Part shown: piece after piece, positions 48,644-52,588 of the stretch
Layout: each line of letters begins with the position of its first letter
Numbering within the stretch: position 1 is the first letter of the stretch
Assembly (NCBI RefSeq): GCF_000010285.1
Contig: NC_010617.1
Span: 558,001 to 622,000 of the forward strand
Length of the DNA: 64,000 nt
Reading direction: 5' to 3'
Source: Kocuria rhizophila DC2201
GTDB lineage: Bacteria; Actinomycetota; Actinomycetes; Actinomycetales; Micrococcaceae
The notes under the pieces: model-generated
What the model saw: the letters and a program-made list of their open reading frames with translations, nothing else
What the model was told of the DNA's origin: nothing
Databases searched by the model: none
Made by a program: the position numbers and the translations under genes

Positions 48644-49163
48644 GGTTCCTCCTGGGTGATGGATGGGATCCGACGGAAGATGGGAATTGCTGCGCCTCGA
48701 GGGCGCCTGCCGCGATGTCCTGCTGACACTGCGGACAGACCCCCCGGTACACCACCTCCGCGGACAGCAGCTGGAAGCCGTGGTCCTGCGAAGGCGTGAG
48801 ACACGGGGCGTGTCCCACCGCGCACGGCACGTCCTGGATGACGCCGCAGTGGATGCAGTACGCGTGGTGGTGGTTGTCACCGGTGCGGATCTCGTACCGC
48901 GCCGGAGATCCGGGCGGTTCGAACTTGGACACCATGCCGATGGCCGCGAGGTCCGCGAGGACCACGTAGACGGACTGCACGGACATGTTGGGCAGGACCG
49001 AGCGGACCTGCTTGACCGTGTCCTCCGCCGTGGCGTGCGGCACAGCGTCCACGGCATCCAGCACCGCGAGACGTTGCCTGGTGACCCTGCGCCCGTGGGA
49101 GCGCAGGTGCGAGGTCCACTCCTCCCGCGAGGGATGCGATGAGATCTCGGCGGTGGTCTCCAT
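48636..49163 (-). CDS. Fur family transcriptional regulator, catalase-linked (module 2)
   Basis: A 175-residue Fur-type repressor. The winged helix includes [19 protein letters not shown] and [15 protein letters not shown]. Metal ligands are in [10 protein letters not shown], with CxxC pairs CIHC and CPQC. It shares layout and much sequence with the Fur protein of module 1, including [12 protein letters not shown], so the two modules are clear paralogs. In contrast to module 1 (74-base gap), fur and katA overlap here, implying tight co-translation. A palindromic element lies 17 bases upstream of the start. Confidence 0.92.
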
Positions 49164-49180
49164 GGCGTCGAGCCTAGCCT

Positions 49181-49201
49181 TATTCTGAGCAATTCACAAT
49201 A
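49181..49201 (-). promoter_or_regulatory. Candidate Fur-family operator upstream of fur-katA module 2
   Basis: Read toward the gene it is TATTGTGAATTGCTCAGAATA. It shares TGAnTnnCTCAnAA with the element before the first fur gene and lies at the same distance (17 bases) from the ATG. Confidence 0.6.
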
Positions 49202-49884
49202 GGTGGTGTGATCCCGCTCGCACCCGTGATCACACCGGGCTCCGGGGCGGGGCCGCGCTCGGGTCAGGGCACCCACACGGGACGGACAACGGGCCGGAGC
49301 GCATGCCGGAGGCCGGCCGGAACCGGGGTTGGAACCGGCGCCCGGGCTGCGGGGGCTGAGGCCGGCGGCAAGCGCGCCGGCGGCCCGGCTGGACCCCGAG
49401 CGCGGGGCGCTCCGCTGGAGGGGCGGAACAGACGAGGTGCGGGACCCCGCGGCCCGGCCGTGCGGCGTCGCCATGAGGCCCCGAAAAAAAGTTTTCCCGA
49501 ACCGCGTCACGATCCGCCCACCCGCGTGTCTACACAGTGAATCGCGTGCGGGCTGCACGCGATTCCGGACGGCCCGATCGCTCTGGGGCCGACGATCCGG
49601 TGCCGCGGTCAGTAAGGGGACGCATCACGCGGCACATGGAGGGCAAGAGCGGCTCCCGGCCGGGCGGGCTGCCCTGCGGGAGACGGGGGAGAGCGGTACT
49701 AGGAGACGGGGACGGGACCGGTGGGGGCTGGTTCCGTCCCCGACCGCCACACCGGGTGCCGCCACCGGCAGCGCGAGGCCTGCGGGCCCCGCCCAGCGCA
49801 ATGCTGGCTCGCGGTCTGTCGGTTCTCCGCGGGGGCTGAGACAATGGGGAGTCACGTCCAGACCACACGCGTCAAGAGAGTGTC
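49202..49884. other. Divergent intergenic region between fur 2 and the sigma factor gene
   Basis: Nearly 700 bases without a supportable gene. The open frames that cross it have no ribosome site and atypical composition. A short AT-rich patch (GAAAAAAAGTTTTCC, 49482-49496) is the only obvious non-GC feature. The promoter of the sigma gene should be in the last 150 bases. Confidence 0.5.
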
Positions 49885-51624
49885 ATGCCAGACAGTGCAG
49901 GTTCCGGGCCCCGTGATCCGGGGGTCCACACCGAGCACCCCGCGAGCGACGAGCAGCTGCTCACCGCCGTGCGCGAGGGTGACTCCTCCGCGTTCGCCGA
50001 GCTCTACGAACGCCACCGCGGGGCCGTGCTGGCCGTGGCCCGCATGCACTCCCGCAACGACGCCGACGCCCAGGACCTCGTGTCCGAGGCCTTCACCCGC
50101 GTGCTGGGGCTGCTGCGCGAGGGCCGCGGGCCCCGGCAGTTCCTGCGCGCCTACCTGGTCACTGCCGTCTCCCGCCTGGCCGCGGACCGCGCGAACGACC
50201 TCACCCGCACCCGCCCCGAGGCACCCCAGCCCAACGGTCCGCTGGACCGCGTGGAGCTCTTCGACGACCTCGTGGTCAAGCAGGTGGACTCCGCCGTGGT
50301 GGCGCAAGCCTTCGCGAGCCTGCCGGAGCGCTGGCAGGAGATCCTGTGGTACCTCGAGGTCGAGGGGCGCCGCCCGCGGCAGGTGGCCTCCGTGGTGGGC
50401 GTCCAGCCCAACGCCGTGTCCGCCCTCGGCAAGCGCGCCCGCGAGGGGCTGCGCACCGCCTACATGCAGGAGCACGTCTCCGCGCAGGCGCTGGAGGACT
50501 GCTACCAGTTCTCCTCCCAGCTGGGCGCCTTCGCCCGGGGCGCGCTCACCCCCTCCCGCACCGCCGTGGTCCAGGACCACCTTGACGGCTGCCGCCGCTG
50601 CACCGCCGAGTACCTCCAGCTCCAGGACCTCGGGCTCGGGCTGCGCGGCTGGATGCTGCCCGTGCTCGCCGGGCTGCCCCTGTGGGGCGGGGCCGGCGGC
50701 CGGCTCGCGGAGTCCCTCGGAGGGCTGCCGCTGCTCGGTGGTTCCCCCGCGCTCGCCGCCGCGGGAGGTGCCGGGGCCGGCACCACCGGGGCTGGCGGCA
50801 CGGCCGGGGTTGTCGACGCCGCCGGGGTGCGCGGTCTCGCCGGGACGGGTGGCGCTGCCGGAGCTGCCGACGCCGCCGGGGCGGCCGCTGGAACGGCTGG
50901 AACGGGCGGTGCCGCGGGGACGGGCGCCGCGGCGTCGGCCGCGGGATCCTCTGCGGCGGGCTCCGCCGCGGGCGGACTCGGAGCGGTGCTGGGGTCCAGC
51001 ACGGGGCTCGCGCTCGCCGTGGGCGCGGTGCTCGTGGTCGGTGCCTCCACCGCGGGACTCGTGGCCCTGAACAGCGGTTCCGAGGAGGCCCCGCCCACGG
51101 CCGCGGGCTCGGCCGAGCCGGGCGGAGCGGGCAGCCGTGCCGCGGCGGAGCCTGGCAGGCAGGACCCCGCGAGCGGTGCGCCCGTACAGGGGGCCGCGCC
51201 CGGCGGGAACGGCGCCGCCGTGCCGGACGCGGACCAGGCCCAGGGTGCGTCGGGTGCCGAGGCCGCCCAGGACGCCGCGGTGGAGCGGTCCGAGTCCACC
51301 GCCCTGCCCGCCCCGTTCCTCCCGGACGTCGACCCGGCCATCGTGGGCCCCGTGCCCGACCTGCCGGTGTCCGTGCCGTACCCCACCCTCCCGCGCGTGG
51401 ATGGCGACCCCGTGCCGCCCGATCCCGTGGATCCAGAACCGGCGAGCCCCGATCCGGTGAGCCCCGACCCGGTCGAGCCCACCCCCAGCCCCGTGCCCAC
51501 CGTCCCCGAGCCCACGCCGAGCCCGGGCGGCGGCGGTGCCACCCCCGCACCCACACCCACCCCTTCCGACGGCTCGTGCCACTGGGTCCCCATACCCTGG
51601 GGCATCGAGGTCTGCATCCCGTAG
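49885..51624 (+). CDS. ECF-type sigma factor fused to zinc anti-sigma motif, membrane helix and Pro-rich extracellular tail
   Basis: A 579-residue multidomain protein. Residues 22-195 are a sigma-70 family ECF factor: region 2 has [19 protein letters not shown] and [14 protein letters not shown], and region 4 has [20 protein letters not shown] with the helix-turn-helix [20 protein letters not shown]. Residues 205-250 hold a zinc anti-sigma-like motif with His232, Cys236 and Cys239. An Ala/Gly-rich linker (285-370) leads to one membrane helix (about 374-396), then about 180 Pro/Asp/Glu-rich residues outside the cell ending in a short segment with two Cys. The architecture suggests a sigma factor tethered and inhibited at the membrane and released by an outside signal. 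The regulator genes usually adjacent to ECF factors are absent, consistent with self-containment. Confidence 0.88.
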
Positions 51625-51682
51625 GCCGCCCGACCGTGCGCACCCCCTGACCCCCCTCCACACCCCTGAGGAGAAACACCTG

Positions 51683-52588
51683 ATGCACCGGCACTACAAC
51701 GGCCTCAAGACCGTCCTGCTCCTGGGCGGGATGTGGGTGGTGCTGCTCGCGATCGGCTGGGCCATCGCCGGAGCCACCCGCAACTCGGCCTTCATCATGA
51801 TCTTCGCGGTGGTGGGCCTGCTCGGCACGGCCTACAGCTACTGGAACTCGGACAAGCTGGCCATCCGGTCCATGCGCGCCGTTCCCGTGACCCCGCAGCA
51901 GGCCCCGGCCATGTACCGGATCGTGCACGAGCTGTCCCAGGCCGCCGGGCAGCCCATGCCCCGCCTGTTCATCGCCCCCACCATGAGCCCCAACGCCTTC
52001 GCCACGGGGCGCAACCCCGAGCACGCCGCGGTGTGCTGCACCGAGGGCATCCTGCAGCTGCTCGACGAGCGCGAGCTGCGCGGCGTGCTGGGCCACGAGC
52101 TCATGCACGTGTACAACCGGGACATCCTGACCTCGTCGGTGGCGGCGGCCGTGGCGGGGATCATCACCTCCGCGGCCCAGATGCTGCAGTTCGCCGCGAT
52201 CTTCGGCGGCGGACGGGGCAACGACAACCGCGGCGGCAACCCCCTGGTGGGTCTGCTGCTCGCCCTGCTGGCACCGCTGGCCGCCACCGTGATCCAGCTG
52301 GCGATCTCCCGGACCCGCGAGTACGACGCGGACGAGGACGGCTCCAAGCTCACCGGGGACCCCCTGGCCCTGGCCTCAGCGCTGCGCAAGATCGAGGGCG
52401 GGGCCTCGCAGTTCCCCATGGACCCCGAGGACCAGAAGGTGGTCAACACGTCCCACCTGATGATCGCCAACCCGTTCCGCGGCGGCGCCGTCACCGGGCT
52501 CTTCCGCACGCACCCGGCCACGGCGGACCGGATCGCACGGCTGGAGAACATGGCCCGCGCCGGGGGAGGCAATCCGGCAGGTCGCTGA
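51683..52588 (+). CDS. htpX: HtpX-like membrane metalloprotease
   Basis: A 301-residue M48 protease. Two N-terminal membrane helices ([19 protein letters not shown] and [16 protein letters not shown]) precede the zinc motif [10 protein letters not shown], and the third ligand Glu lies in REYDADEDG. Two more hydrophobic segments follow the active site. The family degrades misfolded membrane proteins. The ATG at 51683 follows GAGGAGA. It starts 58 bases after the sigma gene and could be co-transcribed with it, which would make it a candidate for the protease that releases the tethered sigma; that link is speculative. Confidence 0.94.

Follow-up and report, generated by a model that had tools for sequence, protein, structure and literature searches.

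Kocuria rhizophila DC2201 carries the gene of a protein in which an ECF sigma factor, an anti-sigma-type zinc finger, a predicted membrane helix and a long Pro-rich tail are joined in one polypeptide. The gene lies in the window, the 64,000-nucleotide stretch analysed here, which spans positions 558001-622000 of a one-contig genome of 2,697,540 bases (Table 1). Substitution ratios show that the fused sigma-zinc finger-membrane protein is under selection, and its domain architecture is that of an already described kind, of which it is an ordinary member. It is likely to be a fused ECF-anti-sigma protein that carries out envelope signalling within one polypeptide, in which the zinc finger would inhibit the sigma domains in cis and regulated proteolysis would free them, HtpX not being the dedicated switch. 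The domains, the conserved ligands and the relatives that share the architecture thus support the original prediction that an ECF sigma factor is here tethered to the membrane and self-contained, its zinc finger lying in cis. Two side findings, the tip that ends the tail and the eroded copies of the gene in sister species, are of more interest than that claim.

Table 1. Features at the sigma factor locus (window coordinates)
Feature	Position	Strand	Basis
Inverted repeat/hairpin upstream of the sigma gene	49539..49565	+	Conserved block, covariation
ECF52-like membrane-tethered sigma factor	49885..51624	+	ATG start, 579 aa; domains, dN/dS
Sigma region 2 (residues 40-108)	50002..50208	+	PF04542 (Sigma70_r2), 36.8 bits, cut-off 24
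Sigma region 4 (residues 139-187)	50299..50445	+	PF08281 (Sigma70_r4_2), 19.8 bits, below cut-off 25.7
zf-HC2 anti-sigma-type zinc finger (residues 206-239)	50500..50601	+	PF13490, 30.4 bits, cut-off 22.2
Gly/Ala-rich linker, zinc finger to membrane helix	50662..50982	+	Sequence, dN/dS
Predicted membrane helix (residues 367-385)	50983..51039	+	Hydropathy 2.1; one segment above cut-off
Pro-rich fast-evolving tail, presumed extracytoplasmic	51040..51621	+	Sequence comparison; 24% Pro
C-terminal tip (residues 565-579), two Cys and Trp	51577..51621	+	Tail ends compared
htpX, membrane metalloprotease	51683..52588	+	NF002839, 469.5 bits, cut-off 412

The reading frame had been placed exactly to the base. 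Opposite the sigma gene, on the minus strand, runs a 603-aa ORF (49852-51663) that is taken to be a high-GC artefact. Since long ORFs occur on the wrong strand in this GC-rich DNA, ORF length alone is no evidence, and domains and selection were used instead; a spurious ORF is ruled out for the sigma gene by its domain matches and by dN/dS. The latter was computed on 17 rows in five groups. In the set formed by the window protein and its three nearest orthologs, the sigma part has a dN/dS of 0.14-0.26 and the zinc part one of 0.20-0.30, and the ratio is 0.49-0.98 beyond the linker; the linker itself gives 0.23-0.55.

Sigma regions 2 and 4 are both found in the polypeptide, as predicted; in Pfam, region 2 lies above the cut-off and region 4 is weaker, and the NCBIfam sigma70-ECF model TIGR02937 matches residues 36-191 with 66 bits (cut-off 42.9). 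Against models made from 13 fused proteins outside Kocuria, sigma-2 scores 91 bits and sigma-4 93 bits, values in keeping with those of the other 17 intact Kocuria rows. A predicted structural model of residues 1-259 (32 rows; pLDDT 73.9, pTM 0.50) supports the sigma fold: Foldseek returns sigma factors, mostly ECF, with 21 matches reaching E 0.001, and VIA-align superposes about 90 residues on solved sigma-2 domains at Z 12-13. Because VIA-align covered mainly residues 18-200, the zinc part is barely tested by the fold, and because pTM is 0.50 no sigma-zinc finger interface is drawn; the model gives no reliable placement of the zinc finger on sigma.

The anti-sigma-like motif H-x3-C-x2-C was likewise recovered, at residues 232-239 of a zf-HC2 domain that scores above its cut-off, and C206 completes a four-ligand site, C206-H232-C236-C239. 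All four ligands are kept in 34/34 relatives aligned, so the zinc residues on which the prediction hung are conserved. These rows were chosen by H-x3-C-x2-C (34/35 extracted; the excluded L066, of 190 aa, lacks the motif), and C206 is therefore the sole ligand independent of the selection. L069 and L044, cut at contig ends, are included in this count and in the tree and excluded from alignment A1. The motif is also present in all 18 further regions from other families. Beyond the zinc finger, hydropathy alone predicts the membrane helix, and the single helix and the long Pro-rich tail of the original prediction reappear as one segment and the stretch that follows it. Genome-wide, Sigma70_r2 is matched three times and zf-HC2 twice, the second zf-HC2 domain adjoining another sigma gene.

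The protein is like ECF52, an actinobacterial kind known from SCO4117 of Streptomyces coelicolor, a species with 51 ECFs (PMC5826349). As described in that paper, ECF52 proteins have an ECF sigma domain, a zinc finger, a variable number of TM helices and a C-terminal carbohydrate-binding domain. Regions 2 and 4, a zinc finger after sigma, a TM helix and a Pro-rich C-terminal extension (181 residues, 24% Pro) are all found in the window protein, whereas the carbohydrate-binding domain is absent from its tail: NPCBM scores 96-103 bits in 4/4 Streptomyces-type proteins scanned (L097, L099, L100, L103), and the window protein has a short tip in its place. No Pfam domain was found in 50965-51624 among matches up to E 0.1. 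As this one named feature is missing, the protein is called ECF52-like; formal placement in ECF52 was dropped, as the deeper tree branches are weak, and the term refers to the described traits. The two kinds also differ in their neighbours, the window gene standing beside fur and htpX and ECF52 beside a TetR gene, and in the membrane part, for which seven of the eight Streptomyces-type proteins have two hydropathy segments as opposed to one. Identity to these eight proteins (L097-L104) is 33-39% over the sigma-zinc part.

The Streptomyces-type proteins come from large genomes of 7-10 Mb in one genus and share one architecture: sigma and zinc finger, then a membrane helix and a Pro-rich region, with NPCBM in the four scanned. 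A TetR gene stands upstream in all four loci tested (L097, L098, L099, L100). They are identified as Streptomyces-type by the architecture and TetR synteny that they share with SCO4117 and atrA, the TetR gene whose neighbourhood is described in PMC5826349. In genome G080, the NPCBM type is the best match (E 1e-40), about 19 orders of magnitude ahead of the other two (1e-21 and 5e-20). Among the relatives, the sigma-zinc part is matched in 33/59 (E 1e-8), and phylum-wide in 18/296 genomes (E 1e-15); of seven matching loci from named relatives, six are from Kocuria and one, a weak match, is from Paractinoplanes. All 28 Kocuria rows of the tree fall into a single clade (100/100), whose relation to the Streptomyces rows is weakly resolved.

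Several other systems share parts of this design. According to the review PMC8999054, the sigma of ECF53 and ECF48 carries a zinc finger at its C-terminus and is joined to one membrane helix or two, and the window protein resembles them in having a sigma with a C-terminal zinc finger and a membrane helix. IutY (ECF243) of Pseudomonas putida is cited in that review as the one experimentally characterised case of release, by Prc and RseP. It too joins a sigma and a membrane anti-sigma part in one protein, but it serves iron-starvation cell-surface signalling in a Gram-negative bacterium, and the likeness is one of description, not sequence. The H-x3-C-x2-C motif and zf-HC2 family are those of the class I anti-sigma factors ChrR and RsiW; these are separate proteins, whereas in the window protein the zinc finger is fused in cis. 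A ricin-lectin protein, L111, which we take to be ECF53-like, is a much weaker match (31%). Fused sigma-zinc finger-membrane proteins of other actinobacteria (L057, L097, L106, L111) end in DUF11, NPCBM, Ig-like and ricin lectin tails, as if the outer sensor had been swapped freely across the actinobacteria. Among the open-licence papers listed, none dealt with a tethered sigma factor of Kocuria; none was found for Micrococcus, nor on eroded sigma domains.

In most intact Kocuria proteins, the fast-evolving tail appears to end in a short aromatic or two-cysteine tip, which is new here. In clade 2 (seven rows), aromatic residues make up 34/210 of the last 30 residues vs 46/2676 elsewhere in the tail; in clade 1 (ten rows, L044 being left out of the tail-end counts because a contig end cuts it), the figures are 23/300 and 14/2412. 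Five clade-1 rows, including the window protein, have two Cys within the last 30 residues, and two further rows have two Cys higher in the tail; the clade-1 rows L042 and L043 have no aromatic residue in the last 30. The eroded clade has 2/300 aromatics at the tail end and no tail Cys. The pattern was noticed first and counted afterwards. The tip may act as a small sensor, or make contact with the cell wall, in the place taken by NPCBM in Streptomyces.

Also new here is that the sigma half is eroded, and the zinc finger retained, in six of the larger Kocuria genomes (G003, G008, G013, G014, G016, G021; 3.6-4.5 Mb). The locus holds ten such copies in these genomes (L062-L065, L067, L068), in tandem pairs in G003, G013, G014 and G016, and all ten group within the Kocuria clade (100/99). 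In the 32 members of alignment A1, Sigma70_r2 is matched in 23 and zf-HC2 in all; six eroded proteins scanned singly give a weak region 2 in one and region 4 in two, all below cut-off. With models built from the 13 non-Kocuria relatives, the medians of the 18 intact and ten eroded rows are 91.2 vs 33.0 bits for sigma-2 and 93.2 vs 44.0 bits for sigma-4; the loss is smaller for the zinc part (50.8 vs 38.9 bits). The dN/dS of the eroded sigma part is 0.33-0.47 (two sets of three orthologs) vs 0.03-0.26 in intact groups; as it is below 1, these are constrained proteins. The eroded copies are probably no longer ordinary sigma factors. A tentative reading, to which we give somewhat less than even weight, is that the tethered sigma of larger-genome Kocuria has given rise to membrane zinc-finger proteins, often in tandem, whose sigma domains fold but no longer work (regions 2 and 4 being weakened and the linker shortened), while the zinc-membrane-tail part would have a job of its own, such as holding another sigma or sensing zinc or redox at the envelope; the window protein would do both.

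Upstream of the sigma gene, a non-coding block (flanks 49529-49755) between fur and the sigma gene is kept in ten clade-1 loci with sequence; L070 was left out of this comparison, as its contig ends about 107 bases upstream. In the hairpin within it, noticed first and counted afterwards, 92.9% of pairs are kept in nine distinct sequences, and 4 pairs are changed on both sides. The sequences are closely related, and of 500 shuffles, 4 reach the covariation score and 63 the count of double-changed pairs, so that the paired changes across Kocuria are only suggestive. A search of Rfam gave nothing near threshold in 49100-49950. Upstream alignments, read by eye, gave no defensible promoter motif shared by the ECF gene and htpX.

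By analogy with the described fused proteins, inhibition in cis followed by proteolytic release would be expected of the window protein. Held by the zinc finger, the sigma domains would stay inactive on the cytoplasmic side of the membrane until an envelope signal, perceived at the stalk or the tip, set off regulated proteolysis. A first cut would be followed by one from the genome's single site-2 protease and by cytoplasmic clearance of the zinc part, and the sigma domains would thereby be freed for RNA polymerase. A single M50 site-2 protease frame was found in the genome, which makes that route available. One finding speaks against a pure sigma-release model: in the six Kocuria genomes the sigma has decayed and the rest is kept.

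An HtpX-type gene does lie 58 bases downstream, as the original prediction stated, but synteny inside and outside Kocuria weakens its suggestion that the release is brought about by HtpX. That HtpX forms an operon with the sigma gene and, as its dedicated releasing protease, cuts the exposed cytoplasmic Gly/Ala linker appears distinctly unlikely. HtpX is able to cut cytoplasmic loops, the window protein has a long linker, and at 23/24 Kocuria ECF loci, including the window, htpX comes next in the same orientation at a gap of 0-200 bp (the 24th ends at a contig end); where the gap is short, the two may be co-transcribed. The adjacency is nevertheless peculiar to Kocuria in the loci sampled, where no linkage of sigma and protease genes was met beyond that genus. 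The protease gene is found in 54/59 relatives, yet 9-kb regions around it hold no sigma-zinc match (E 0.001) in 10/10 non-Kocuria family genomes; nor is there an HtpX match in 18/18 regions around other-family relatives or in the five regions L057-L061. Even within the genus, one genome, G007 (L147), has retained fur and htpX at a distance of about 200 bp and lacks an ECF gene between them. At L149, L152 and L154, fur is directly upstream of htpX, divergent and 0.2-0.6 kb away, and at L153 and L155 another ORF lies between the two. These arrangements are most simply explained if, in the ancestor of Kocuria, the sigma gene was inserted between fur and htpX, which were already neighbours; htpX would then probably be an older resident rather than a dedicated partner.

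Control might also be exerted with the protein staying membrane-bound, if its conformation were shifted by a kinase, or by ligand or redox effects on the tip or the zinc finger; this reading is rather unlikely. Zinc fingers of the class I anti-sigma type may act as sensors or have a structural role, and two tail Cys are present in 7/10 clade-1 rows. For SCO4117, PMC5826349 describes phosphorylation and, upon removal of the C-terminal part, a phenotype lesser than that of full deletion, which together make room for control other than release. A tethered sigma would, however, have to recruit polymerase at the membrane, and ECF48, ECF52 and ECF53 are expected to be activated by proteolysis in PMC8999054, where cleavage of IutY is reported. 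It is highly improbable that the window gene is itself decaying and no longer a sigma factor in this species: the sigma part is eroded in six related genomes, the gene is absent at the locus in one and region 4 falls below the Pfam cut-off, yet the window protein matches the intact rows in both sigma scores, and its sigma-part dN/dS is low. Regulated proteolytic release thus remains the preferred reading.

With three sigma region 2 domains genome-wide, the window protein is among very few alternative sigma factors of K. rhizophila. So small a set in a small genome makes this organism a simpler host than Streptomyces coelicolor for studying whether a fused ECF is released by proteolysis, by which protease and upon what signal, and the eroded copies in its sister species offer naturally occurring variants that have lost the sigma half but retain the zinc half.
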